Below, piece by piece: positions 2,615-54,417 of a stretch of 54,417 bases of DNA. The DNA lies in contig JAGPCO010000001.1 of assembly GCA_018058095.1 (NCBI GenBank), forward strand, positions 1-54,417. The letters are read 5' to 3'. The notes under the pieces are model-generated. The model did no database searches, was not told the origin of the DNA, and was given only the letters and a program-made list of their open reading frames with translations. This stretch comes from Kofleriaceae bacterium (GTDB lineage Bacteria > Myxococcota_A > Polyangia > Haliangiales > Haliangiaceae). Numbering within the stretch: the stretch's first letter is position 1; each line of letters starts with the position of its first letter. The position numbers were made by a program, and so were the translations under genes.

Positions 2615-3231
2615 GTGAGCGTCCCCTTGGTCGACGGCACCGCGCCGGCCAGGCGCGGGTCGATCTGGGTGGCGGCGTCGACGGCGCGCGCGAACGCCTT
2701 GAACACGCACTCGATCACGTGGTGGGCGTTGCCGCCGTAGTGCAGGTTGACGTGCAGGTTACACTCGGCCTTCACGGCGAACGCCGCGAACCACTCCTTG
2801 GCCAGCTCGCAGTCGAACCCGCCGATCCACTTGCCGTCGAGGCCGGGCACGTTCCACACGAAGGCCGGCCGGCCCGAGAAGTCGACGGCGACGGTGACCA
2901 GGACCTCGTCCATGGGCAGGGTGGCCCAGCCGTACCGGACCAGGCCGGCCCGGTCGCCCAGCGCCTCGCGAAATGCCGCGCCCATGACCAGGCCGACGTC
3001 CTCGACGGTGTGGTGGCCGTCGACCTCGATGTCGCCGCTGGCCTCGACGGTGAGGTCGAACACGCCATGCCGGGCCAGCGCGTCGAGCATGTGGCTCAGG
3101 AACGGCAGCGGGGTGCGGATGGCGCGCTGGCCCGAGCCGTCGAGCCCGAGCTCGACCACCACCTGCGTCTCCTTGGTGCTGCGTTCGATCCGCGCGCGTC
3201 GTGGGGCCACGCTCCCTTGTAGCCGAACCAC
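2611..3231 (-). CDS. hisB: Imidazoleglycerol-phosphate dehydratase HisB
   Basis: Monofunctional IGP dehydratase, a manganese enzyme that converts IGP to imidazole-acetol phosphate. The two metal-binding His clusters are seen as DGHHTVEDVGL and GGNAHHVIE, and FLSHMLDALARHG matches the conserved N-terminal region. At about 206 residues it is a normal stand-alone form, with no fused phosphatase. The chosen start is GTG at 3231; GTG at 3210 (VAPRRARIERST) fits the family N-terminus better, but the AAGGGAG before it is only one base away. It is the first gene of the hisBHAF operon. A divergent lipoprotein gene starts 20 nt away. Confidence 0.94.
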   Translation of the reverse strand: MVRLQGSVAPRRARIERSTKETQVVVELGLDGSGQRAIRTPLPFLSHMLDALARHGVFDLTVEASGDIEVDGHHTVEDVGLVMGAAFREALGDRAGLVRYGWATLPMDEVLVTVAVDFSGRPAFVWNVPGLDGKWIGGFDCELAKEWFAAFAVKAECNLHVNLHYGGNAHHVIECVFKAFARAVDAATQIDPRLAGAVPSTKGTLT

Positions 3232-3251
3232 CCCGGGCGTACAAATCGGGG

Positions 3252-4418
3252 ATGCGCCGTCGTTCCGCCCATGCCCTCGCCCTCGTCCTCGCGACCGCCG
3301 GAGTCACCGCCTGCGGTGGCGGCAAGAAGCCGGTCAAGAAGCCCGACCCGAAGCCGGTCGTGACCAAGCCGGTGCCCAAGCCCGAGACCGCGGCCGACCG
3401 CGCCGCCAAGCGCCTGGCCGCGGCCCAGGCCATCGTCGCTGATGGCGCCACCTGCGCCCCGGCCACCCTCAAGGGCAGCGGCGAGGTGGTGCTGCAGCTC
3501 GGCGCCATCGACAGCAAGCCGGTGCTGTGCGCGACCGACGTCAAGGCCGGGCGCCTGCTCGGGCCCATCGCGTGCTGGACCGTCGACACCAAGGGCGGCG
3601 AGCTGGCGTACCGGGCCCCGGCCCCGCTTCCGGGCGTGCCGTTCCAGGTCGGGATCGACGGCCGGTGCGCGCTCGAGCGCTGCCTGCCCGAGGGGGCCGA
3701 GACCGGCGACGGCACGGCGTGGATGGCGGTCAACGTGGCGGGCGACAGCATCCTGCTCGTCGGTGACGTGGTCCACGTCTTCGGCGCCGACAACACCGCG
3801 AAGGGCCAGATCAAGCTGCGCGACACCACCCACGCCGACAAGGCGCTGGTCGGTGAGGTCACCGCCGCCGCGTTCGTGGGCGACATGGTGTACGTCGCCG
3901 GCGGCGGCGAGGGCGGGCACAAGGTCTTCGGGTTCAAGCTCGACGGCACGGCCCAGGGCGCGGTCGAGCGCCTCGGCGGCGCCGACAAGGGTCCGATCAG
4001 CATCATCGCCGGCGCGCTGTCACCGTTCGGCGACAAGCACGTCGCCATCGTCGAGGCCGGGCTGACCTCGATGCTCACCGTCGAGGTCGCCACCGGCAAG
4101 CGGGCCAAGCTGGTGCGCAAGCCGCCCAAGACCGCGTGTAAGGCCAAGGAGCTGGCCGCGTTCGCCGCGGGCGACAAGGACAAGATCGGCAGCAAGTGCC
4201 TCACCGCGCTCGGCAAGCACTTCGAGCCGTACGTCGGCGCCATGTTCGTGCAGGGCGTCAACAACCACCTCGCGCTCCTGCGTGGGGGACGAGACGGGGC
4301 CCTGGTCAAGCTCGACGGCAAGACCCTGGTCGAGAACGCCGAGTTCCCCGAGCCGTGGTGCGGGACCGAGGGCGGCGACGCGGCCGCGCCCGCGCCCGCG
4401 CCCACGCCCGCGCAGTAG
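3252..4418 (+). CDS. Lipoprotein of unknown function with Lys/Pro-rich linker
   Basis: A 388-residue predicted lipoprotein. The signal peptide starts MRRRSAHALALVLATAGVTA with Cys21 as the likely lipidated residue. It is followed by GGGKK and a Lys/Pro-rich spacer (about residues 25-48, KPVKKPDPKPVV) that could cross the periplasm or peptidoglycan. The rest has repeated G-D-V/G-D-M turn motifs that suggest beta-propeller-like strands, then a Pro/Ala tail. Paired Cys residues suggest disulfides. I do not recognise a family. The ATG at 3252 is chosen because it directly begins the signal peptide. The gene is divergent from hisB and 45 nt upstream of the kinase gene, with a hairpin between. Confidence 0.75.
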   Translation: MRRRSAHALALVLATAGVTACGGGKKPVKKPDPKPVVTKPVPKPETAADRAAKRLAAAQAIVADGATCAPATLKGSGEVVLQLGAIDSKPVLCATDVKAGRLLGPIACWTVDTKGGELAYRAPAPLPGVPFQVGIDGRCALERCLPEGAETGDGTAWMAVNVAGDSILLVGDVVHVFGADNTAKGQIKLRDTTHADKALVGEVTAAAFVGDMVYVAGGGEGGHKVFGFKLDGTAQGAVERLGGADKGPISIIAGALSPFGDKHVAIVEAGLTSMLTVEVATGKRAKLVRKPPKTACKAKELAAFAAGDKDKIGSKCLTALGKHFEPYVGAMFVQGVNNHLALLRGGRDGALVKLDGKTLVENAEFPEPWCGTEGGDAAAPAPAPTPAQ

Positions 4419-4426
4419 CCCGACGA

Positions 4427-4453
4427 CGGCGCCGGCGCGACGGCGCCGGGTTT
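4427..4453 (+). terminator. Possible weak terminator hairpin after the lipoprotein gene
   Basis: CGGCGCCG (4427-4434) and CGGCGCCG (4441-4448) form an 8-bp stem with a 6-nt loop, followed by only three T residues. It lies 8 nt after the lipoprotein stop and just before the kinase gene. The short T-run makes it weak, and each arm is itself self-complementary. Confidence 0.3.
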
Positions 4454-4463
4454 CGCAGGTACG

Positions 4464-6743
4464 ATGGCGGCCGATGCAGCGAGGCGCCACGCCGTGACGC
4501 GACACCCCGACGGCCCGGCCGCGGATGGTGAGGCGGCCGGCCCCGGCCCGACGCCGCCGCGCATCGACCAGACCGCGCCGACCATCGCCGGCGGCGGCCC
4601 CCTGCCGGAGGACGGCCGGCCCACGGTCAGCCCGACCCGCGTGCCCGACGTCGGGGTCGAGGTGTCCGAGGTCCTCGGCGTCGGGGGCATGGGCATCGTC
4701 TACCGCGGCCGCCAGGTCGACCTCGATCGCCCGGTCGCCTTCAAGCGGCTGATGGACGAGCCGTCGGCCACGACCCGCGCCCGCTTCGTGCGCGAGGCCC
4801 GGCTGACCGCGCGCCTCGACCACCCCAACATCGTGCCGGTCCACCTGCTGTCGCCCGGCCCCGACGGCAGCCCGACCGGCTACGCCATGAAGCTGATCGA
4901 CGGCAAGACCTTCGAGCAGCTGATCGAGGAGACCGCGGCGATGCTCGGCAAGGGCACGCCGCTCGACGACGACCACACCCTCGAGACCCGGCTCGAGCAC
5001 TTCCTCAAGGTGTGCGACGCCATCGCCTTCGCCAACGACCGCCAGGTCATCCACCGCGACATCAAGCCGGCCAACGTCATGATCAGCGCGTTCGGCGCGG
5101 TCTACGTCATGGACTGGGGCATCGCCCGGCCGATCGGCGCGCCCGACCTGGAAGCCGACGAGGCCGACCCGGCCGACCCGGCCGAGGCCGCCAGCGCGGC
5201 CGCCGCCGATCCGGCCGACGTCGCCCTGACCCGCGTCGGCGCGGTCATCGGCAGCCTGGCCTACATGTCGCCCGAGCAGGCGCGCGGCCGCAGCGACCAG
5301 CTCGACGCCCGCTCCGACCAGTACTCGCTCGGCCTGCTGCTGCAGGAGCTGGCGTCGCTGCGCTCGCCGACGGCGCGGGCGTCCGACGCCTCGGCGCTGT
5401 ACGCGGCCGGCCGCGGCCAGCGCCTGCCGTTCGAGGTCCTCGACGACGGCCAGCGCCCGGTGCCGCCCGAGCTGGCGGCCATCGTCGCCCGCGCCACCGC
5501 CATCGAGCGCGACGCCCGCTACCCGAGCGCGCAGGCACTGGCCGACGACGTGCGCCGCTTCCTGCGCGGCGAGCCGGTCCACGCCCTGCCCGAGGGGCCG
5601 ATCGCTCGCCTGCTCCGGTTCATGAGCCGACACCGGCGCGCGACCTTGGTCGCGTTCGTCGCGGTCCTGGCCGCCGCCGCCATCACCGTCGGCTGGAGCC
5701 GGTACCGGCAGGCCGCGCGCGCGCTGGCGGCGCGCGAGCGCGGGGCCAAGCTGACCGCCCTGTACACCGAGGTCGCGCGCCAGGCCACGCGGATCGACGC
5801 CGAGCTGTTCCGGCTCGAGGAGGGGCTCGAGGGCCTGACCGCGGCGGCGGCGTGGGCCCTGACCGGCCCCGAGCCCAGCCCCGAGGCGGCGCCGATCTAC
5901 TTCGCGACCGACTACGCCGACCCGGCCCGGCGCCCGCCCGACTTCGGCGCCGGCACCGGCTATCGCTGGCCGGTGTCGCTGACCCAGCTGGTGGTCGGCC
6001 TGCCGCCGGGCGCCGACCCGGCGCCGCTCCTGCCGCGGATCCGCCGCCTCATCCCGCTGCGCGAGCACATCCGGCAGATGGTGGTGGCGGCGCGCCTGGG
6101 CGACACCACCGCGGTCAGCGCCGACCAGGCCACCGACCTGCTGCGCCGGCGCGGCAGCCCGATCGACTACGCCTACGTCGATCTGCCCGAGGGGGTCCAC
6201 GTCATGTGGCCGGGCATGGACGCGTTGCCGCCTGGCTACGACGTGCGCACCGCGTCGTTCTACCAGATGAGCGCGAACAAGCGCGGCAAGCGCTGGGGCG
6301 CGCCTTACGTCGACGCCACCACCGACGCCGCCGGCGACGACCTGGTGCTGCCGTGTACGCAAGGCATCTGGTCGCCGCGCGGCGAGTTCCTCGGGGTGGC
6401 CGGGGTCGAGATGACGGTGACCAAGATGGTCGAGACGGTCATGGTGTTGCCGACGCGCCAGACCGTGCGGGTCAGCCTGGTCGAGGGCCGCGGCGGCAAG
6501 GTGGTCGACTCGCGCGACGCCGGCAAGCGCTTCGTCGCCAGCGGCAAGGACGAGGCCATCACCTTCGCGCAGTTCGACCTGCCGGCGGTGGCCGCGGCGG
6601 TGCAGGCCGGGCGCGAGGGCATCCTCGAGACCCGGCGCGACGGCCGGGCGGTGGTGGTCGGCCTGGTCCGCCTCGACGCGCTCGGCTGGACCTACGTGGT
6701 CGAGGTCGACGCCGCCACGCTCGGCCTGCCGCCGGCAACGTGA
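4464..6743 (+). CDS. Membrane Ser/Thr protein kinase with outward Cache-like sensor domain
   Basis: A 759-residue kinase. After a Pro-rich N-terminus, the Gly loop LGVGGMGIVY is at residues 71-80, the ATP-binding Lys at 94 (VAFKRL), HRDIKPAN at 197-204, a DWG in place of DFG at 217-219, and SPEQ in place of APE near 269. An acidic/Ala insertion occupies about 228-252. One membrane segment (about 393-411) follows a basic RHRR. The remaining ~330 residues would face the periplasm and look like a PDC/Cache ligand-binding domain (GKRWGAPYVDATT, then LVLPCTQGIWSPRGEFLGVA). The arrangement suggests an extracellular ligand controls cytoplasmic kinase activity; the ligand is unknown. The next lipoprotein gene follows after 16 nt. 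Confidence 0.88.
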   Translation: MAADAARRHAVTRHPDGPAADGEAAGPGPTPPRIDQTAPTIAGGGPLPEDGRPTVSPTRVPDVGVEVSEVLGVGGMGIVYRGRQVDLDRPVAFKRLMDEPSATTRARFVREARLTARLDHPNIVPVHLLSPGPDGSPTGYAMKLIDGKTFEQLIEETAAMLGKGTPLDDDHTLETRLEHFLKVCDAIAFANDRQVIHRDIKPANVMISAFGAVYVMDWGIARPIGAPDLEADEADPADPAEAASAAAADPADVALTRVGAVIGSLAYMSPEQARGRSDQLDARSDQYSLGLLLQELASLRSPTARASDASALYAAGRGQRLPFEVLDDGQRPVPPELAAIVARATAIERDARYPSAQALADDVRRFLRGEPVHALPEGPIARLLRFMSRHRRATLVAFVAVLAAAAITVGWSRYRQAARALAARERGAKLTALYTEVARQATRIDAELFRLEEGLEGLTAAAAWALTGPEPSPEAAPIYFATDYADPARRPPDFGAGTGYRWPVSLTQLVVGLPPGADPAPLLPRIRRLIPLREHIRQMVVAARLGDTTAVSADQATDLLRRRGSPIDYAYVDLPEGVHVMWPGMDALPPGYDVRTASFYQMSANKRGKRWGAPYVDATTDAAGDDLVLPCTQGIWSPRGEFLGVAGVEMTVTKMVETVMVLPTRQTVRVSLVEGRGGKVVDSRDAGKRFVASGKDEAITFAQFDLPAVAAAVQAGREGILETRRDGRAVVVGLVRLDALGWTYVVEVDAATLGLPPAT

Positions 6744-6759
6744 TCCGCGACCAGCGCCG

Positions 6760-7458
6760 ATGAGACGTGTTGCCATCCCCCTGCTGCTGGCCGGTTGTGG
6801 CCGCCTGGCGTTCGATCCGGCCTCGACCGACGGACCCATCGGGGACGGCGGCGCACCGCTCGACGCCGCGCAGGCACCCGACGCGGCCCCGTGTATCGCG
6901 TCAGCCTGGTCGACCGGCTTCGACACGGTCCCGCCATGGGGGGCGCTGTGGCTGGCGCCGAGCACGTCGCTGGCGCAGGCCGCGATCTCCGGCGGTGAGC
7001 TGCGCCTGACCCCGGTCATGGCGGCGGGCCAGTACGCGGGCTTCGCCGCCAACACGAGCGTCGGGTTCTACGACCGCCGCCTGTCCCTCGACGTGCGGCA
7101 GGGCGCGGGTGATGCCGGCGTGTTCCTCGGCCTCGACGCGACCGCGACCCAGGACTACCTCCGCGTGTACCTCGTCGACGACGTGCTCTCGGTCGTGAGC
7201 TCGATCGGGACCGACACGATCGTGCTCGGGTCGGAGGTGGTCGATCTCGTGCGCGAGCGCCGCTGGCACCTGCGCGAACGTGCCGGTGTGGTGGAGGTGT
7301 CCGTCTCGGCCGACGGGGCGGCCGCGCGGCAGGTGTGGCAAGGACCGACCCCGTCGGTCCTTGCTGACGTCATCGTCGCCATCGGGGTCGGCCTGGGCAC
7401 CCCCGCGACCCGGCCGAGTGTTGCCCGCATCGACGACCTGGTCGACTGCCAGGAGTAG
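6760..7458 (+). CDS. Small lipoprotein, possibly lectin/LamG-like
   Basis: A 232-residue lipoprotein starting MRRVAIPLLLAGCGRLAFDP, with Cys13 the likely lipidation site. An Asp/Ala/Pro-rich spacer (about 20-45) follows. The C-terminal ~180 residues have alternating hydrophobic strands (YDRRLSLDVRQGAGDAGVF, YLRVYLVDDVLSVV) resembling a concanavalin/LamG-like beta sandwich, but I cannot assign a family. It follows the kinase by 16 nt and is probably in the same transcript. It ends 14 nt from the convergent Hsp70 gene. Confidence 0.7.
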   Translation: MRRVAIPLLLAGCGRLAFDPASTDGPIGDGGAPLDAAQAPDAAPCIASAWSTGFDTVPPWGALWLAPSTSLAQAAISGGELRLTPVMAAGQYAGFAANTSVGFYDRRLSLDVRQGAGDAGVFLGLDATATQDYLRVYLVDDVLSVVSSIGTDTIVLGSEVVDLVRERRWHLRERAGVVEVSVSADGAAARQVWQGPTPSVLADVIVAIGVGLGTPATRPSVARIDDLVDCQE

Positions 7459-7472
7459 CCCGCCGCGCCCGA

Positions 7473-9962
7473 TCAGCGCCGCAGCTGCTGCAGCCGGCTG
7501 CGCGCGGCCGACACGTCGGCCGGCGACAGCGCGCCGATGACGTCGAGCGAGCAGCTCTGCTCGCGGCCGGTGCGGGCGTCCCGGGCCCGGACCGACAGGA
7601 TGCCGGACGCGTCGATGGCGAAGGTCACCTCGATCGAGGTGTCGCCGCGCGGGCGTGGCTCGAGCCGGTCGAGCACGAGGTCGCCGAGCAGGACGTTCTC
7701 GTGCAGGCGGCGCGACTCGCCCTGGCACACCTGCAGGCGGACCGCGTCCTGCTCGTCGCGCGAGGTGGTGAACATGCGCTTGATCTCGAGCGGGACGCGC
7801 GAGTTGCGACCGATCAGCTCCTCGCAGAACCCGGCCACCGTGCCGACGCCAAGCGCGCGCGGGGTGACGTCGAGCACGGTCGGCAGCGGCGCGGTCGGCG
7901 CCGGCATGGGCGCGGTCGGCGCGGCCGGCCAGCCGCCGAGCACGCTGGCAGAGACCGCGGGCATCGGGTCGTCGCCACCGTCGCCGAGGTCGCCGCGGGC
8001 CCCGGGCGAGCGCGGCACGCCGACGTTGGTGACGCGCGGGTCGGCCGACAGGGTCGACGCGTACGGCGGCTGCGACGCGCCGAACCCGCGCGCGGTCGGC
8101 GGCTTGAGCGGCGCCACCTCGGCCGTGGGCGCGCCGAACTCGTCGAGGGTGGGGCTGGTGACCGGGCCGAGCGCGTCGTCGAGCGTGAGGCCGCCGGTCG
8201 GGGCGTCGTCGAAGTCGAGCAGGCCCGACCCGCCCGGCGCCGGATCCATCATCAGCGTGCGCTGGTCGGGCCCGGCCACCTGCCGCGGTGGGGTGGGCGG
8301 AGGCGCGGCGACCGGGCGCGGCGGGACCGACGGCGCCCGGGCCGGTACCGGTGGGACCGATGGCGCTCGCGCCGGCGCAGGCGGGACCGACGGCGCCCGC
8401 GCCGGGGCGACCGGCGCCGGGATGACCGGCGGCGAGGCGACCGCAATCGGCTGCGGCACGCCCGGCGGCGTCGACGGCGGCGGCGGCGAGCGTGGTGGCG
8501 GGTCGGCCGGGGCCGGCGGCGGCGCGGCCGGCTTGGTCACGCGGCCGATCGGCACGGCCTTGGTCGGGTCGAACTTGTCGACGTGGGCACCACGCGCGGC
8601 CGGGCGCTCGGTCACCCGCATCGGCGGCTTGAGCGGGGCGGCCGACATCGGCGCGGTGTGGCGCGGCTCGGCCGGCGCCTTGGGGATGCCCTCGGTGACC
8701 GAGTCCTCGGAACGGAACGCGTCGGCCGCGGCCAGGGTCGGCTCCTCGTTGGCCGAGGCCGCTGGCGCCGCCGGTTCGGCCGCCAGGACCCGGCCGCTGG
8801 TGCGGCGCTCGAGGGTGCGGCGGATGGCGTAGGCCTGCAGCGCGGCGCCGACCGCCACCGCCTCCTCCGGGTTGACCTCGGTCCGCGGCGCCTTGCCGAA
8901 GTACGCCGCGACCCGGTCGCGCACCAGCGGCATCTTGGTGGTGCCGCCGACCAGGACGATGTCGTCGATGCCGTCCTTACCCAGGCCGGCCATACGCAGC
9001 GCCTCGTCGCACACCGGGAAGGTCTGATCGACGACGTCGAGCACCGCCGACACCAGCTCGTCGCGGGTCAGCTCGTGGCGCAGGTCGAGCGCGGCGCCGC
9101 CCGGCCCGTACGCGATCTCGTCGATCTTGATGATGGCCCGGGTCCGGCGCGACAGCTCGATCTTGGTCTGCTCGGCGACGGCGCGCAGTCGCATCATCGC
9201 GATCTCGTTGCTGCGCAGGTCGACCCGCTGCTCGGCCAGGAAGGCGGCGACCAGGCGATCGACCACGCGCTCGTCGAGGTCGTCACCGCCCAGGAACGAG
9301 TCGCCGGCGGTGCCGAGCACCTCGAACCGCTGGTCGTCGAGCTTGAGGACGGTGATGTCGAACGTGCCGCCGCCGAAGTCGTACACGGCGATGGTCTTCT
9401 TGAGCGCGCGCAGGTTGCCATAGGCCAGCGCCGCCGCGGTCGGCTCGTTGAGGACCCGGACCACGGTCAAGCCGGCGATGGCGCCCGCGGTGGCGGTGGC
9501 CGAGCGCTGGGCGTCGGTGAAGTTGGCCGGCACCGTGACCACGGCCCGCGTCGCGTCGCCGCCGAGCGCGGCCCGGGCGATGCCGCGCATGTGGTCGAGC
9601 ACGATGGCCGAGATCTCCGGGACGGCGAACTCGCCGCCGCGGGTCTTGATGAGCGGCTGCTGGTTGGGGCCCTCCTTGATGAGGAACGGGGCCCGCCCCC
9701 GCGTGGTCTGCACCTCGCGCGCGCCGAAGGTGCGCCCGATCAAGCGCTTGACCGAGTACACGGTGTTCTTGGGGTCGATGACCTTGCGCTGCTTGGCCTC
9801 GGCGCCGACGACGACCGAGCCGTTGGGGTGGAAGCTGACCACCGACGGCTGCACCTTGGCGCCGCCCTTGCCGGCCAGGACGTGCGGCACGCCGGCCTCG
9901 TCACACGCCGCCACCACCGAGTTGGAGGTGCCGAGGTCTATGCCCAGGATCGGCTCGGTCAC
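7473..9962 (-). CDS. Hsp70/DnaK-family protein with long Pro-rich insertion
   Basis: An 829-residue Hsp70 relative. The nucleotide-binding domain (about 1-395) has all signatures: [26 protein letters not shown], and [15 protein letters not shown]. The substrate-binding beta domain starts only at about residue 695 ([12 protein letters not shown]) and ends about residue 815 with no room for the C-terminal helical lid. Between them lies a ~300-residue Pro/Ala/Thr-rich segment, including three copies of a 10-residue PARAPSVPP repeat. In DnaK these two domains are joined by a short hydrophobic linker, so this is not the housekeeping DnaK. GTG start. The upstream HExxH membrane-protein gene ends 10 nt before it, so the two are probably co-expressed. 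Confidence 0.9.
8321..8410. repeat. 30-bp tandem repeat within the Hsp70-like gene
   Basis: Three imperfect 30-bp units begin at 8321, 8351 and 8381, each with GGGACCGA followed by TGGCGC/CGGCGC. On the minus strand they encode PARAPSVPP-type decapeptides in the Pro-rich insertion. The reading frame is kept, so copy number may vary without disrupting the gene. Confidence 0.75.
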
Positions 9963-47566: not shown

Positions 47567-48766
47567 ATGACGCCGCCCGCGACTCCGGTCACGCCGCCCT
47601 ACGACCTGCCGCCGGCCGCCCCGGTCGGCGCCGTCGCCGCCTACCTGGCCCAGGACGACCACACCCGGGCCCGCGGCCTCCTGCGCGTGCTCGACGAGCA
47701 CGGCACGGCCGACCCGGTGGTGGCGGCGCGGTACTCGCGCGAGTTCGTGCGCGCCCTGTACGAGGGCATGCTGCGCATCCGCGTCACCGACGCCCGCATG
47801 ATGGCGCTGCAGCGGCAGGGCCGCATCGGCTTCTACGGTGAGGCGCTCGGGCAGGAGGCGGCGGTGGTCGGCTCGGCCGCGGCCAGCGCGCCCGACGACT
47901 GGATCGTGCCGGCGCTGCGCGAGGCCGGGGTCGGCCTGTTTCGCGGCATGACGACCGACAGCTACCTGGCCCAGATCTTCGGCAACGCGGCCGACCCGAC
48001 CAAGGGCCGGCAGATGCCGTGCCACCCGTGCGATCGGGCGCACAACTACGTGGTGATGTCGTCGTGCGTGTCGACCCAGATCCCGCACGCCGTCGGCGTA
48101 GCCATGGCCATGAAGATCAGCGGCGACGGCGGCCGGGCCTGCTTCGGCTACATGGGCGACGGCGGCACCAGCGAGGGCGACTTCCACGTCGCCCTCAACT
48201 TCGCCGGGGTGATGAAGGCGCCGGTGGTGCTCATCTGCCAGAACAACCAGTGGGCCATCTCCACGCCGGGCAAGGTGCAGACCGCGGGCGAGACGATCGC
48301 CCTCAAGGCGCTCGGCTACGGGGTCGAGCCGATCCGCGCCGACGGCAACGACGTGCTGGCCAGCTTCGAGGCGGTCCGCTACGCCGCCGACCGAGCCCGG
48401 CGCGGCGACGGCCCGACCTTCGTCGAGCTGCTGACCTACCGGGTCAGCGCCCACTCGTCGTCGGACGACCCGTCGCGCTACCGCGACGAGCAGGTCACCG
48501 AGGTGTGGCGGCAGCAGCGCGACCCGCTGCGCCGGCTGCGCACGTTCCTCGAGGCGCGCGGGTGGATGGCCGCGGGCGAACACGAGGCGTGGGCGGCCCG
48601 GCTCGAGGCCGAGGTGCGCGACGCCATCGCCCGTCAGGAGCAGGTCGGCCCGCCGGCGCTGTCGACGCTGTTCGAGGACGTCTACGCCGAGCCGACCTGG
48701 CTGCTCGACGAGCAGCGGGCCTACCTCGAGGCGCAGCCGCGCTCGACCAACCCGCACCACCGGTAG
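47567..48766 (+). CDS. 2-oxoacid dehydrogenase E1 component, alpha subunit (branched-chain type)
   Basis: A 399-residue thiamine-diphosphate subunit. QGRIGFYGEALGQEAAVVGS matches branched-chain E1-alpha rather than pyruvate type. The TPP/Mg motif is GDGGTSEGDFH (197-207) with the closing Asn in QNNQWAI (about 225-231). TYRVSAHSSSDDPSRYRDEQ contains the phosphorylation-loop serines of the family. The N-terminal ~50 residues are a variable extension. It should pair with the E1-beta and E2 encoded at 35783-38072, but it stands alone 9.5 kb away, between an RCC1 protein and a lipoprotein gene. Confidence 0.94.
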   Translation: MTPPATPVTPPYDLPPAAPVGAVAAYLAQDDHTRARGLLRVLDEHGTADPVVAARYSREFVRALYEGMLRIRVTDARMMALQRQGRIGFYGEALGQEAAVVGSAAASAPDDWIVPALREAGVGLFRGMTTDSYLAQIFGNAADPTKGRQMPCHPCDRAHNYVVMSSCVSTQIPHAVGVAMAMKISGDGGRACFGYMGDGGTSEGDFHVALNFAGVMKAPVVLICQNNQWAISTPGKVQTAGETIALKALGYGVEPIRADGNDVLASFEAVRYAADRARRGDGPTFVELLTYRVSAHSSSDDPSRYRDEQVTEVWRQQRDPLRRLRTFLEARGWMAAGEHEAWAARLEAEVRDAIARQEQVGPPALSTLFEDVYAEPTWLLDEQRAYLEAQPRSTNPHHR

Positions 48767-48970
48767 CCGCCGGCGCGCGCGCACCGGCGCCGATGGCGAA
48801 GCGGCTTCAGGCGTGAATGACGGGTCACAGCCGGTCGTCGATCTGTCCACACCTCCTGCCGCGGCCCGCCCTCAACACTCATGATCTCACTCAGGTGCCG
48901 CCGGCCGCGCTCTGGATCACACCTGGCAACCGGCTTGCTTGCACGGACGCAGCCCCCCCCTCGAGGAACC

Positions 48971-50605
48971 ATGCCCTGGCCCACCCTGCGCGTCGTCCTG
49001 ACCACGTCCTGCCTTGCCCTGATCCTGATCGCCGCAGCTGGGTGCGGCCCCTCGGCCAAGGACCGTGCGCTCCGTGAGGCCAACATCGCCCGCTCGCGCG
49101 GCGACCTGGTCGGCGAGGTCCTGCACCTGCGCCGGGCCTGCGAGCTCGATCCCGACGATCGCGACGTGTGCGAGCGGGCGGCGCAGGTCCAGGCCCACGC
49201 CCGCCAGCAGCTGGTCATGTCGGCGCAGAGCGCGTGTAACGTCATCGGCCCGCCGCGCTCGCGCGAGCCGGCCGCCGTCGACGGCGCGGTCGCCGCGCTC
49301 GACGGGTGCCTGGCCGCGATCACCCGCATCCGCGAGGTCTCGCCAGGCGACGCCGAGGCCATCCGCCTGGCCGACAAGGCCGGCGTGGTGTGGAGCGACG
49401 CCTGCCACAGCACGCTGGCGCCGGCCGACAGCATCGATGGTCGCCTGTTCCGGGTCCAGTGCCTGGGCACCCGGGCCCAGGCCATCGGCACCCCGGCCTT
49501 CGCGGCCCGGGTCGGAGAGGCGCGCACGGCGCTGGCGGCGCCGCTGCTCGACCTGGCGGCGGCGGCGGCCAGCGCCAGCCGCCCGAGCGGGCGCCTGGCC
49601 GCCCTGGCGGCGGCGGCCTGCGTCGACGCGGGCGCGGTCGACGGCGCCACGCTGTCCCAGGCGCGGGCCGGCCACCGTGCGCGTTCGGTGCCCGGCCTGA
49701 CCGTGGCGCTGACCCGACCGCGCGGCTTTCCAGGCGAGCTGTGTGAGCCCATCGCCGCCGCCACCCACCACCGCGTCCAGTGCGCCGCCTCGGCCGCGCC
49801 TGGCCTGGACCTGAGCGGGACGCTGACGATCGAACCGACCCGGCACCGCGTCGGCGAATCGACCGAGCGGCACGACTACGTCGCCGGCATCGACCGCTAC
49901 GAGAACCCGGCGTATCCCCCCAGGACCCAGGACGAGCTGTACTCGCGCGAGCGCATGCGCCAGGCCGAAGAGACCTGGCGTCGCGACAAGGACGAGTGTT
50001 CCCGCGCCAGCGACGCCCTCAGCCGGGACTACTGCAGTGGCTGCCCGCTCGAGGACGAGAAGAAGCGGCGCTGCCTCCAGGCCGACACCAGCGAGGACCT
50101 GTTCGAGCAGCGCAAGGGCGACTGGCAGCGCGCGTCGGATAGCCTGCGCGACACGCCGGCCGTGCTCGAGCGCGAGATCATCCGTACCGCGAGCTACGTC
50201 GTGCGTACGCACGAGTGGCGGACCGACTGGCGCGCCGCGCTGCGGGCCGGTGCCCTGCAGCAGGCGCTCACCGGCAGCGCGGTCACCGGCGACACCGAGC
50301 ACCCCGGTGCGCCCGAGGCCAGCATCGCGGCCGATCCGCTGAGCGGGCCGAGCGACGGCTGGTACGAGGCCGAGGTCGCCGCCGAGCTGGCCCGGGGCGC
50401 GGCCGGCCTGCTCGACGCCGAGCTTCGGTCGCGGGCGCAGCAACTCGGCGTCGGTTGCGCCGGTGCGCCGCAGTGGACGGTCGAGTGGCTCGACTGCTGG
50501 GCGGTCAGCCAGGGCCTGTTGCGCGGCGAGGTCGGTGGCGATGCGCTCCTGACCCTCGCCAGCCACGCCGCCACCGGCGCGGCCATGCCGGTCAGCTGCC
50601 GCTAG
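48971..50605 (+). CDS. Large lipoprotein of unknown function
   Basis: A 544-residue exported protein. ATG 48971 is preceded by GAGGAACC and opens the signal MPWPTLRVVLTTSCLALILI with lipobox Cys25 (AAAGCGPS). The next ~60 residues look like TPR-type helices (REANIARSRGDLVGEVLHL). Further on, a Cys-rich charged stretch (SRDYCSGCPLEDEKKRRC) sits between two long helical regions. No domain recognised. The 204-nt upstream gap holds no gene or clear promoter. The DUF4139 gene follows after 144 nt. Confidence 0.72.
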   Translation: MPWPTLRVVLTTSCLALILIAAAGCGPSAKDRALREANIARSRGDLVGEVLHLRRACELDPDDRDVCERAAQVQAHARQQLVMSAQSACNVIGPPRSREPAAVDGAVAALDGCLAAITRIREVSPGDAEAIRLADKAGVVWSDACHSTLAPADSIDGRLFRVQCLGTRAQAIGTPAFAARVGEARTALAAPLLDLAAAAASASRPSGRLAALAAAACVDAGAVDGATLSQARAGHRARSVPGLTVALTRPRGFPGELCEPIAAATHHRVQCAASAAPGLDLSGTLTIEPTRHRVGESTERHDYVAGIDRYENPAYPPRTQDELYSRERMRQAEETWRRDKDECSRASDALSRDYCSGCPLEDEKKRRCLQADTSEDLFEQRKGDWQRASDSLRDTPAVLEREIIRTASYVVRTHEWRTDWRAALRAGALQQALTGSAVTGDTEHPGAPEASIAADPLSGPSDGWYEAEVAAELARGAAGLLDAELRSRAQQLGVGCAGAPQWTVEWLDCWAVSQGLLRGEVGGDALLTLASHAATGAAMPVSCR

Positions 50606-50647: not shown

Positions 50648-50749
50648 TGGCGGGCCCCGGCGTGAGCGCCGGTGATGGGCGCGTGGTCGCGTGGCCCGTG
50701 TGGATCGGTGACAACCGACCTGCGGCCGCATCGGTCGCAGGAGGACGAC

Positions 50750-53074
50750 ATGACCACGCTGCGCTCGATCCTGCTCCTGGCCGCGATCTCCACCCTGACC
50801 GGCGCCGCCGGGGCCTCTGCCGGCTGCACGCGTCGGGGCGGCTACGTTCAGGTCGATCAGGCCCCGCTCGGGCGGGTCGTGGTCTACCGCAACGGCGTCG
50901 CCTTCTACGAACGACGCGCGATCATCACCGACGGTCGCCTGGTGGTCACCGTGCCGCGCGACCGGGTCGACGACTTCCTCAAGTCGATGACCGTGGTCGA
51001 TCGCGTCACCCGCAAGCCGCTGCCGGTGGTCATCCCGCGCCAGCAGGACGCCGGCGGCGAGACCCTGACCATGACCCTGCGCACGCCGTCGACCCGCACC
51101 GCCGACGTGCTCCTGACCTACGTGACCGAGGCGCCGGCGTGGAAGCCGAGCTACCGCGTCGTCGTCGGAGGTGACGGCAAGGTCATGCTCGAGGGCTGGG
51201 CCATCGTCGACAACACCTCGGGCGAGGACTGGCGCGCGGTCCGGGTCGGGGTCGGCGCCAGCTCGGCGCTGTCGTTCCGCTACGACCTGTGGAGCGTGCG
51301 CTCGATCGAGCGCGACCTCCTGGCCGACCAGGAGCGCTTCGCGGTGGCGCCACCGACGGCGCGCTCGACCTTCGCCAGCGGCCCGGGCGCCGCGCCCGCG
51401 GGCGGGCCGCAGGTGAGCGACGTCATGCTCGACCTCATCCCGACCGGCCGCACGTTCTCGGCCGCGCTGGGCAGCGCCGCGGGTAGCCAGGCCGACGGGG
51501 TGGCGTTCAGCGGCTCGAGCAGCCTGGAGAACCAGTACTTCGTCGACGGCGTCACCACCGGCGAGACCATCACCATCACCGACGCCGCCCCCAGCATCGA
51601 CCCGACCACGACGGCGCTGAGCGCCCGGCCGGGCGGAGACAACCTGCCGACCTACACCGGCTCCGGCGCCTCGGCCCGCCCTGCAAAGGCGGCCGAGCGC
51701 GCGGCGCCCCGGCCCGCGCCGGTGCCACGGCTGGTCGAGGTCGCGCGCCAGCTCATGCGCGACCGCTCGGACGTGCTGATCGAGAGCCTGTCCGACCCCG
51801 GGCGCGACCCGACCGGGGCCGAGGCCAGCGCCCGCGCCAACCAGGTGCGCAACCACCTCATCGACGCCGGGGTGGCGCCGGCGCGGATCCGCGTCGAGGC
51901 CCGGCGCGAGGCGGGCACGACCGGCCGGGTCCGCCTGCTGGCGGTGGCGACGACCAAGGAGGCCCCGGCCGAGGAGGCCCGCCCCGCCGGCGGCAGCGCC
52001 GTCGCGGCGACGCCGGCCGCGCCGGGCGACTCGATGCCGGTCGGCGAGAGCCACTTCCTGTCCGAGCAGGCGCTCGACGTCGAGGCCGGCAGCAGCGCCA
52101 TGGTCTCGATGGTGCGAGCCGAGACCACCGGCGGCGTGGTCTACCTGTACGACCCGACCTCCGAGCGGGGCAACACCCGCTACGCGTTCCGTGCGGTCCG
52201 CCTCGACAACCCGACCGGCGACACGCTCGAGCCCGGCCCGGTCACCGTCTACGGCGATGGCCGGTTCATCGGCGAGGGGCTGACCGAGCCGGTACCGCCG
52301 CACGCCCCGGTCGTCATCCCGTTCGCGCTCGACCGCCAGATCATCGTCGAGCGGCGTGACGACGGCGAGGACCAGCTGGCGCGGGTGGTCAGCATCGAGC
52401 GCGGGGTGCTGACCGCCGAGATGCAGCGGATCCGGCGCGCCCACTTCACCGTCACCAGCCGCCTGACCAGCCCGGCCACCGTCTACCTGCGCCACCGCCT
52501 CGAGGACGGCTGGGCGCTGACCGAGGCGCCGTCGAAGCAGACCCGGGCCGGCGACGCCCACCTGTTCGAGCTGACCCTGGCCCCGGGTCAGGTCGCGCAG
52601 GTGGTGATCGCCGAGGCCACCCCGATCGAGCGGTCGCTGCAGCTGACCTCGATCGAGGCCATGAGCAAGCTGTCCATGTACGTCGAGAGCAAGGCGCTGG
52701 CGCCGGAGCTCGAGGCCGCGCTCGGCGCGGTGCTGGCGACGCACCGCAAGGCGGCCGACCTGGTCGAGCGGATCGCCACCCTGCGCCGGCAGCAGGCCGA
52801 GTACCGCGGCCGCAGCGCCGAGCTGGCGACCCAGCTGGTCGCGCTCGAGGCGGTCAAGACCGGGCGCGACCTGCTGCGGGTGCTGCGCGGCAAGCAGGCC
52901 GACATCCTCGAGCGCAGCCAGCGCCTGACCATCGCCGTGGTCGACGCCGAGGAGGCGCTCATGCTGGCCCGGGTCCAGTACGCCGACCAGCTGGCCGAGC
53001 TGCGCCTGCCCGACGCCCGCGCCGCGACCCCGGGTCCCGTCGCCACGCCGTCGCCGCGCGCGGCCAGCCGCTGA
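50750..53074 (+). CDS. DUF4139 domain protein with inserted TonB-plug-like and OmpA-like segments
   Basis: A 774-residue exported protein with a near-perfect RBS (CAGGAGGACGAC before ATG). The signal ends near Cys26. DUF4139-type strands occupy about 38-200 (VVVYRNGVAFYERRA, TYVTEAPAWKPSYRVV) and resume at about 420-660 (VVYLYDPTSERGNTRYAFRAV, FALDRQIIVERR), ending in a coiled coil (about 655-750). Two segments are inserted between the halves: residues 230-270 (PTGRTFSAALGSAAGSQADG, then SGSSSLENQYFVDGVTTGE) copy the plug motif of TonB-dependent receptors, and 327-395 (VARQLMRDRSDVLIESL, ARANQVRNHLIDAGVAPARI) look like an OmpA C-terminal domain. Surface role likely. Confidence 0.78.
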   Translation: MTTLRSILLLAAISTLTGAAGASAGCTRRGGYVQVDQAPLGRVVVYRNGVAFYERRAIITDGRLVVTVPRDRVDDFLKSMTVVDRVTRKPLPVVIPRQQDAGGETLTMTLRTPSTRTADVLLTYVTEAPAWKPSYRVVVGGDGKVMLEGWAIVDNTSGEDWRAVRVGVGASSALSFRYDLWSVRSIERDLLADQERFAVAPPTARSTFASGPGAAPAGGPQVSDVMLDLIPTGRTFSAALGSAAGSQADGVAFSGSSSLENQYFVDGVTTGETITITDAAPSIDPTTTALSARPGGDNLPTYTGSGASARPAKAAERAAPRPAPVPRLVEVARQLMRDRSDVLIESLSDPGRDPTGAEASARANQVRNHLIDAGVAPARIRVEARREAGTTGRVRLLAVATTKEAPAEEARPAGGSAVAATPAAPGDSMPVGESHFLSEQALDVEAGSSAMVSMVRAETTGGVVYLYDPTSERGNTRYAFRAVRLDNPTGDTLEPGPVTVYGDGRFIGEGLTEPVPPHAPVVIPFALDRQIIVERRDDGEDQLARVVSIERGVLTAEMQRIRRAHFTVTSRLTSPATVYLRHRLEDGWALTEAPSKQTRAGDAHLFELTLAPGQVAQVVIAEATPIERSLQLTSIEAMSKLSMYVESKALAPELEAALGAVLATHRKAADLVERIATLRRQQAEYRGRSAELATQLVALEAVKTGRDLLRVLRGKQADILERSQRLTIAVVDAEEALMLARVQYADQLAELRLPDARAATPGPVATPSPRAASR

Positions 53075-53155
53075 GCGCCTGGCCGGACGCGACGATCTCG
53101 CTGGCCCCAGGCGCCAGGGGCCTGGCCCACCACGATCGTGTGGCAGCCTGCTTCG

Positions 53156-54417
53156 ATGCTGCGATCCTCGCGCCTGCTCACGATGACGACCCTACTGCTG
53201 GTCATGGCCTGTGGCGACGATGGCGGCGGAGGCGGCGACGCCGGGCCGCGCCCCGACGCCGGGCCCGACGCGCCGACCGGCGCGCGCCTGCACCCGCTGT
53301 ACCCCGCGCTCGACCTCGACACCCTGCCCGGCAACGGCGGCGGCGCGGTCGGCCCGTACCAGCCCCCGACCCTGCCGACGACGACGCGGCAGGTCACCGT
53401 CACCAGCACCGGCCCGCAGGCCGGGCGCGACCTGCTCGACGCCTGCGCCACCGCCGGCACCGCGGTCACCGTGCCCGACGCGGCCGGTCGCATCGGCGTG
53501 CTCGACGTCGGCAACAGCGACGACTGCGACATCACGCTCGGCGCCGCGGTGGTGGTCGACTTCCTGTACCTGGGCCACCTGCCCGGCCCGGTGCGGGCGC
53601 CCAGCCACCGCATCCGCGTGCGCGGCGGCCAGTTCGGCAGCGTCGTGGTCGATCCCGAAAGCACCGACCTGGTGCTCGACGGCGTGGTCATCAACAACGC
53701 CGTCCTGCCGCCCGCGCAGCGCTCGGGCACCGCGATCTACCTCATCGACGACGATCAGCTGGCCGACGCCCAGGTGACCCGGTTCGCGCTGGTCAACTCG
53801 ATCATCCGCATGGTCGCGACCGAGCCCGACGGCGACGGCAACCGCGACGGCTGCGCCTACCTGGCCGGCGGCGCGCGCGACGTGTTCTTCGCCAACAACA
53901 ACATAGTCACCGCCGGCAACCGCAACTCGTGGGGCTTCCGCCTCAGCGGCGGCGACAACACGCTGTTCATCGACAACACCGTGCGGGTGTCGTTCCACAA
54001 GATGATCCGGATGAACGACGGCCCGGTCGACTACGTGTACGTCAAGGGCGGCACCTGGATGCGCGAGGCGACCCTGACCGCCGGCGGCCTGGAGATCAAC
54101 GACAGCTGGGCCCAGCTGGGCGACCTCGGCACCGACAACGTGTACATCCACGACCCCGCGGTGTGGATGCTGTCGACCGAGCCGGTGGTGTTCGGCGCCT
54201 CGTTCGGCCCGGGCCAGGTCGGCAAGCGGTGGGAGGCCCGGCGCATCTCCTGGCACGCCCGCGCCGCCGGCGTGGTCAGCGACGCCCACCTGCAGGGCCT
54301 GCAGGACGGCTGCGCCGCCGGCGCCACGTGCGACTACGGCGTCGGCACCCACAGCTTCGCGGTTGATCCGGGGCTGGCCCTGCCGACCACCGCGTGGCGC
54401 GACCTGCCGACCATCGC
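53156..54417 (+). CDS. Lipoprotein of unknown function (runs off right edge)
   Basis: An open frame of at least 420 codons with no stop before the right edge. Signal MLRSSRLLTMTTLLLVMA and lipobox Cys19 (ACGDDGGGG), followed by a Gly/Asp/Pro-rich spacer. The mature part has regular beta-strand repeats with NN/DG turns (LVLDGVVINNAV, VFFANNNIVTAGNRNSWGFR, DNTLFIDNTVRVSF), a pattern of right-handed parallel beta-helix (pectate-lyase-like) proteins. A polysaccharide-binding or cleaving role is possible but unproven. The C-terminal end is not in the window. Confidence 0.72.
   Translation, partial: MLRSSRLLTMTTLLLVMACGDDGGGGGDAGPRPDAGPDAPTGARLHPLYPALDLDTLPGNGGGAVGPYQPPTLPTTTRQVTVTSTGPQAGRDLLDACATAGTAVTVPDAAGRIGVLDVGNSDDCDITLGAAVVVDFLYLGHLPGPVRAPSHRIRVRGGQFGSVVVDPESTDLVLDGVVINNAVLPPAQRSGTAIYLIDDDQLADAQVTRFALVNSIIRMVATEPDGDGNRDGCAYLAGGARDVFFANNNIVTAGNRNSWGFRLSGGDNTLFIDNTVRVSFHKMIRMNDGPVDYVYVKGGTWMREATLTAGGLEINDSWAQLGDLGTDNVYIHDPAVWMLSTEPVVFGASFGPGQVGKRWEARRISWHARAAGVVSDAHLQGLQDGCAAGATCDYGVGTHSFAVDPGLALPTTAWRDLPTI

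Follow-up and report, generated by a model that had tools for sequence, protein, structure and literature searches.

Background

TonB boxes and plugs are regarded as parts of outer-membrane transporters, and also of bacteriocins and phages by which transporters are exploited, and among the vWA and M56 proteins of Bacteroidota some have plug and CarboxypepD_reg domains. We know of no description of the DUF4139-OmpA lipoprotein architecture of Myxococcota, and in a literature search, where DUF4139 came up in two papers on unrelated matters, we did not find a plug fragment described in DUF4139 proteins. The Oar subclass of TonB-dependent transporters, to which Oar of M. xanthus belongs, is built in the order CarboxypepD_reg, TonB box, plug and barrel. 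In M. xanthus, Oar-type receptors handle protein substrates, the NTE and plug of Oar bind the CTD of TonB1 in two-hybrid tests, and the TonB-box substitutions E118R and I122P lower PopC secretion (PMC6434023). The OmpA-like peptidoglycan-associated domain (PF00691) is found in lipoproteins and porins of the Pal/OmpA/YiaD kind, and in A. baumannii OmpA the residues D271 and R286 contact diaminopimelate (PMC6572160). DUF4139 and TIGR02231 describe the mucoidy inhibitor MuiA family, and YfbK-like vWA proteins have independently been proposed to be periplasmic force transducers (PMC12204202).

Here we analyse a gene in a stretch of 54,417 nucleotides of Kofleriaceae DNA, referred to as the window. 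Its product is almost certainly a predicted outer-membrane lipoprotein in which an OmpA-like domain breaks up the DUF4139-like body and carries, in its beta1-alpha1 loop, a captured piece of the N-terminus of an Oar-type receptor. The half plug and the TonB-box-like motif in this piece are homologous to those of Oar transporters, whereas the window protein is without the second plug half and the beta barrel, has its pieces in a permuted order and has as their carrier a predicted DUF4139/OmpA-like lipoprotein; the CarboxypepD_reg domain of Oar-type receptors is also kept by relatives of the gene. With PF00691 domains it shares the beta1-alpha1-beta2-alpha2-beta3-beta4 fold and an Asp and an Arg at the contact positions, but its domain sits between the DUF4139 halves, has the receptor fragment lying between beta1 and the remainder, and scores below the Pfam cut-off. 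Both halves of DUF4139/TIGR02231 are recognised in it, and it differs from this family in having a C-terminal coiled coil and the OmpA-like insert and in being a predicted lipoprotein. Some YfbK-type vWA proteins in this bacterial family (PMC12204202 for the type) share the receptor N-terminal module with it, but their body is vWA/YfbK_C and their module is N-terminal and collinear.

Results and discussion

The gene and its DUF4139-like body

The gene lies on the forward strand at 50750..53074, from its ATG at 50750 to the end of its stop codon at 53074, and is a single unbroken frame (774 aa) with a Shine-Dalgarno-like AGGAGG (50739..50744, +) 5 bases 5' of the ATG. The sequence and the alignment point to a signal peptide (50750..50827, +) with the putative lipobox ASAG-C, in which the Cys is C26. 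This Cys is kept in at least 90% of relatives (alignment, n=40), whose lipoboxes, LAGC, LTGC or LSGC, are clearer; in the lipobox of the window protein the -3 residue is Ser.

The N-terminal half of the DUF4139-like body is made up of residues 39-204 (50864..51361, +; 309 bits with our own profile, Pfam DUF4139 at 122-167, confident in the AF2 model) and the C-terminal half of residues 429-755 (52034..53014, +; 524 bits with our own profile, AF2). The latter ends in a helical hairpin or coiled coil, residues 652-750 (52703..52999, +), with AF2 helices at 652-700 and 706-750. Homology to both DUF4139 halves is seen in two profile blocks that align over 40 relatives. The Pfam DUF4139 (PF13598) score of the window protein is 26.3 bits and thus under the gathering cut-off of 31.8, probably because the domain is split; the relatives L022 (34.1 bits) and L074 (37.9 bits) clear the cut-off. 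NCBIfam TIGR02231 matches with an E value of 1.4e-13 and 50.5 bits against a cut-off of 112.6, so that the MuiA threshold is not reached. Ribophorin I, which was among the top Foldseek hits as a structural match of the DUF4139 body, had a TM of 0.11 and was not trusted, and a search of the PDB with phmmer gave a chance match only.

The OmpA-like domain

A preliminary description had placed a plug-like and an OmpA-like segment in the middle of the DUF4139 fold, and by our own profiles both do lie between the DUF4139 halves. The larger part of the OmpA-like domain, alpha1-beta2-alpha2-beta3-beta4, is formed by residues 325-401 (51722..51952, +; Pfam OmpA, AF2 pLDDT 84-91), and from this remainder its beta1 strand, SDVMLDL at about residues 223-229 (51416..51436, +; structure alignments), is cut off by the insert. 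With the isolated segment Pfam OmpA gives an E value of 6.5e-4, which is under the curated cut-off, and the paralog clears this cut-off (27.7 vs 27.2 bits). The predicted fold aligns to OmpA/Pal/YiaD and MotB domains with Z 9-11 over about 90 residues, which bears out the OmpA-like segment that had been noticed. In the model these alignments cover the residues from 216-224 to about 400, and therefore the first strand of the OmpA-like domain precedes the receptor fragment. Because of this placement of the first strand we put the fragment in the beta1-alpha1 loop; in the predicted structure the receptor fragment is nested in the OmpA-like domain, which is itself nested in DUF4139. Of the two neighbouring inserts that had been described both are thus present, but the plug part is inside the OmpA-like domain and not beside it. 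The OmpA-like domain of the relative L017 is likewise split, at 202-212 and 422-499, and more clearly than that of the window protein. L017 aligns to A. baumannii OmpA and Pal over a stretch that starts at 202-207, ends near 499 and includes a CarboxypepD_reg domain, which itself aligns to carboxypeptidase D with Z 12.9, and a disordered half plug.

In the window protein D349 and R362 occupy the peptidoglycan-contact positions. The relatives are of two paralogous kinds, and this Asp/Arg pair is present in type A, which is DUF4139-OmpA with a low-complexity loop rich in Gly, Pro and Lys, while the Asp is lost from most members of type B, which combines the same DUF4139-OmpA body with a loop that holds receptor pieces. 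Nor is the OmpA-like domain peculiar to this gene, for the close homologs of DUF4139 that we examined from across the phylum have it as well: the fusion was seen in all 28 close homologs fetched from other Myxococcota families. In this phylum sample (L181-L208), DUF4139 lipoproteins that hold an OmpA-like domain between their halves are widespread, and many are under the Pfam OmpA cut-off.

The receptor fragment

The fragment begins with a half plug in two pieces, IPTGRTFSAALGSAAGSQADG at residues 230-250 (51437..51499, +; 27 bits with the receptor profile PGRTF) and GVAFSGSSSLENQYFVDGVTTG at residues 250-271 (51497..51562, +; 42 bits with the receptor profile VDG); the plug-like stretches PTGRTFSAALGSAAGSQADG and SSLENQYFVDGVTTGE are residues 231-250 and 257-272. 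The second piece has 95% identity over 21 aa to the receptor of a relative. After it comes a TonB-box-like segment, GETITITDAAPSIDPTTTA, at residues 271-289 (51560..51616, +; 21 bits with the receptor profile BOX); it has the motif GETITIT..AP.ID, and ETITITDAAPSID at 272-284 is a putative TonB box at the level of the motif.

Pfam and NCBIfam gave no match on the plug segment alone. Since this segment is too short for them and without its second half, we built our own profiles for single pieces (CPD, TonB box, PGRTF helix, VDG strand and the second plug half, PLUG2) from 30 receptors, and these receptor profiles do match the insert. A profile of the N-terminus, made from five Oar-like receptors, was searched against the whole genome of 7.57 Mb in six frames. 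The best hit was the genome's own Oar-like receptor (E 1e-110); the window gene, which matches over profile columns 121-168, came next (E 4.5e-14), ahead of every other TonB receptor of the genome, and the plug motif first seen at about 230-270 is therefore real. In a direct search residues 222-273 match the genome's own Oar-like receptor with 50% identity (E 7e-7).

By the piece profiles the order in the window protein is PGRTF-VDG-BOX, followed by the OmpA-like remainder and DUF4139. The order in receptors is CPD-BOX-PGRTF-VDG-PLUG2, so that there the TonB box precedes the plug, and the window copy is therefore permuted and has lost CPD. The PLUG2 profile has no match in the window protein and Pfam does not match a complete plug (PF07715); no barrel family was matched either, and where a receptor has its 22-stranded outer-membrane barrel DUF4139 stands downstream. 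A CarboxypepD_reg extension is not present in the window protein and relatives have one, for example L017 (Pfam E 9e-16). For both the window protein and L017 disorder is predicted over half plug and box (pLDDT <50). The plug-like loop that had been proposed is thus plug-derived, but since it holds only the first plug half with a TonB-box-like motif, permuted and predicted to be disordered, it is not a folded plug loop; in the structure prediction the OmpA-like part of the insert folds and the plug part does not. The TonB-box-like motif (271-281), the permuted order, C26, the missing PLUG2 and the nesting in the OmpA-like domain go beyond the preliminary description.

Relatives, loop arrangements and synteny

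Relatives were collected in one scan of genome contigs and in searches of related genomes. The profiles support a mosaic that arose by insertion of plug-derived and OmpA-like segments in a DUF4139 protein, and this mosaic recurs in other Myxococcota. Receptor pieces were found in none of the 28 homologs from other Myxococcota families, and the fragment was found in the family of the window only. The type B loop reads CPD-BOX-PGRTF-VDG in L017 and L067; VDG-CPD-BOX-PGRTF in L018, L020, L021, L022, L060, L061 and L023 (6285-8870); PGRTF-VDG-CPD-BOX in L059; BOX-PGRTF-VDG in L053; BOX-PGRTF-VDG-CPD in L074; CPD-BOX-PGRTF in L019 and in one gene of L073 (8705-11677); PGRTF-VDG-BOX in the window, in a second gene of L073 (11771-14005) and in L134; VDG-BOX-PGRTF in L133; VDG-CPD-BOX in L014 (5790-8384); and PGRTF-VDG in L055. 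CarboxypepD_reg was confirmed by Pfam in L017, L022, L067 and L074 (E 9e-16 to 8e-8).

The type B genes of many genomes of the same genus are, like the window gene, downstream of a gene for an E1-alpha dehydrogenase (47567..48766, + in the window; Pfam E1_dh E 1.7e-83), which served as the synteny anchor. Because they have this neighbour in common, these type B genes are orthologs with differing loop arrangements. All the genomes are MAGs, and an error of assembly or annotation, or a broken receptor gene, had to be considered. This is extremely improbable, because the frame is uninterrupted, has its own ribosome site and has complete DUF4139 halves on either side, and syntenic orthologs in more than 10 separate assemblies together with the many relatives rule out a broken receptor gene or a misassembly. 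Between the E1-alpha and DUF4139 genes the window has, in this genome only, a gene for a predicted lipoprotein of 574 aa (48881-50605, +), which belongs to no Pfam family and is without a homolog in those syntenic loci that we compared. Downstream there is an open-ended ORF (53138-54417, +) with a lipoprotein-like start, an Asp/Gly-rich leader and no Pfam family.

The tree for counting origins was built from the DUF4139 body only, because the tree of the module pieces is too unresolved for this (39 of 61 inner branches open). In the body tree the window protein falls within a type B clade of 12 rows (100/100) which has at least six loop arrangements, and its branch is long; all 12 members of this orthologous clade have the receptor fragment. 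The type B proteins of genus g5 are placed elsewhere, and forcing all type B together was rejected (AU p 0.00014, lnL lower by 54). Therefore there were at least two acquisitions, unless gene conversion homogenised the bodies; copies of A and B are adjacent in L071 and L072, and conversion between such neighbouring copies may have evened out the bodies.

Source of the pieces and constraint on the module

We compared 69 pieces from 20 type B proteins with receptors, taking shuffled genome labels as the null. The best receptor match was in the piece's own genome for 21 of the 69 as against 6.1 expected (p 0.0002), and for 16 as against 5.6 expected when the comparison was confined to the genus (p 0.0006). 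Because of this excess we conclude that the pieces are either renewed from, or kept like, the resident receptors. The window copy is exceptional, with 77% identity over 62 columns to a relative's receptor vs 50% to that of its own genome. The module evolves faster than the DUF4139 body: in five pairs its pN/pS is 0.50-1.07, against 0.09-0.41 in the DUF4139 N half, and it is below 1 in four of them.

These results have to be weighed against the main alternative explanation, that the long disordered beta1-alpha1 loop is a linker tolerant of foreign sequence, refilled when the multicopy Oar-like genes recombine ectopically or undergo gene conversion with it, and that the pieces are without function. 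The weak constraint on the module fits this, as do the many arrangements, the gaps in the sets of pieces and the predicted disorder; pieces that follow the receptors of their own genome are what gene conversion would give, and relatives without the module fill the same loop with Gly/Pro/Lys-rich low complexity. However, across at least 33 proteins from several families the pieces come from one source only, the first part of Oar-like receptors, and never from PLUG2 or the barrel, and a fragment in every member of the orthologous clade and a pN/pS below 1 in most pairs also argue against it. We consider a functionless linker possible, though on the unlikely side.

Of 23 DUF4139 rows 13 have the strict TonB-box-like pattern, as do 31 of 38 receptors, and not one of the 2,994 other ORFs has it; relaxed forms were seen by eye in 4 further DUF4139 rows. 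By the strict pattern or the profile the motif is missing from L053, L055, L073 (11771-14005) and L134, and therefore the box cannot be the sole common function. No element is as constant as the VDG piece, which 21 of 23 DUF4139 rows have, so that the half plug is steadier than the box, and PLUG2 has no match in any of the 22 DUF4139 and 12 other module proteins. It has to be asked, then, whether the half plug (GRTF...SLENQY.VDG) itself binds the barrel of a resident receptor or a secretion substrate, the lipoprotein being a lid, a chaperone or a decoy. The constancy of the VDG piece, its likeness to the receptors of its own genome and the protein substrates of Oar-type receptors in M. xanthus (PMC6434023) would agree with such mimicry of a plug. 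Nevertheless it is improbable, because the half plugs are without the barrel-packing strands and predicted to be disordered, because a packing interface would hardly tolerate a permuted order and because the neighbour of the window gene is the E1-alpha gene and not a receptor gene.

Docking to the Ton system

The reading that we tentatively favour, as a real possibility at somewhat less than an even chance, is that the receptor-derived loop may be a docking segment which couples the lipoprotein to TonB or to a resident receptor. It is favoured because of the TonB-box data for Oar, the specificity of the motif, the TonB_C proteins that the genome encodes and the window motif ETITIT, in which Glu and Ile are spaced E-x-x-x-I like the residues substituted in Oar. 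The likeness of the pieces to the receptors of their own genome and the presence of the module in YfbK-type vWA and VIT-vWA proteins speak for it as well. The lipid would anchor the protein to the outer membrane and the OmpA-like domain would be able to touch peptidoglycan, while the disordered periplasmic loop would present a linear motif to the resident TonB C-terminal domain or to an Oar-like receptor system. In this way a non-transporter protein could be pulled by the Ton motor or be recruited by the receptor. Against this reading stand the relatives without the motif, a half plug that is steadier than the box, the fast evolution of the module, the loss of the contact Asp from most relatives with a module and the modest likeness of the window copy to the receptor of its own genome.

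Other proteins carry the module too. In the YfbK-type vWA proteins L119-L123 and L128 (L119:2485-4461, L120:4005-6161, L121:2355-4421, L122:3846-6050, L123:3220-5757 and L128:1552-3426) it is N-terminal and collinear and consists of CarboxypepD_reg and a TonB-box-like motif, in some with the half plug; neither a second plug half nor a barrel is present. In the tree of the module pieces L128 groups with the receptors of its own and of a sister genome (100/100). Beside the vWA gene in L123 (G010:C457), 3220-9283 holds successive ORFs, each with a CarboxypepD_reg-like segment. The VIT-vWA proteins L129-L131 (L129:1512-4112, L130:3496-6132 and L131:2-1945) have PGRTF-VDG near the C terminus and the second plug half is absent; their half plug is followed by a C-terminal strand-rich stretch which ends in an aromatic W and is possibly a small outer-membrane barrel.

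Conclusions

From sequence comparisons such as these a broader proposal can be drawn, which we put forward as speculative and rather doubtful: Kofleriaceae-type bacteria may graft the TonB-docking end of Oar-type receptors onto DUF4139-OmpA lipoproteins and onto vWA proteins of the YfbK and VIT types, and keep this end in step with the receptors that they themselves have. Envelope lipoproteins in general would then be pulled by the Ton motor, in a Ton-driven parallel to Tol-Pal. For DUF4139, whose function is unknown, a concrete setting emerges here, a predicted lipoprotein of the envelope that has a domain of the peptidoglycan type, and the locus is a good example of nested domain insertion with shuffling in place across syntenic orthologs. 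That a predicted lipoprotein and vWA proteins carry a portable receptor N-terminus, rearranged in circular fashion, suggests that transporters may not be the only proteins on which the Ton system acts.
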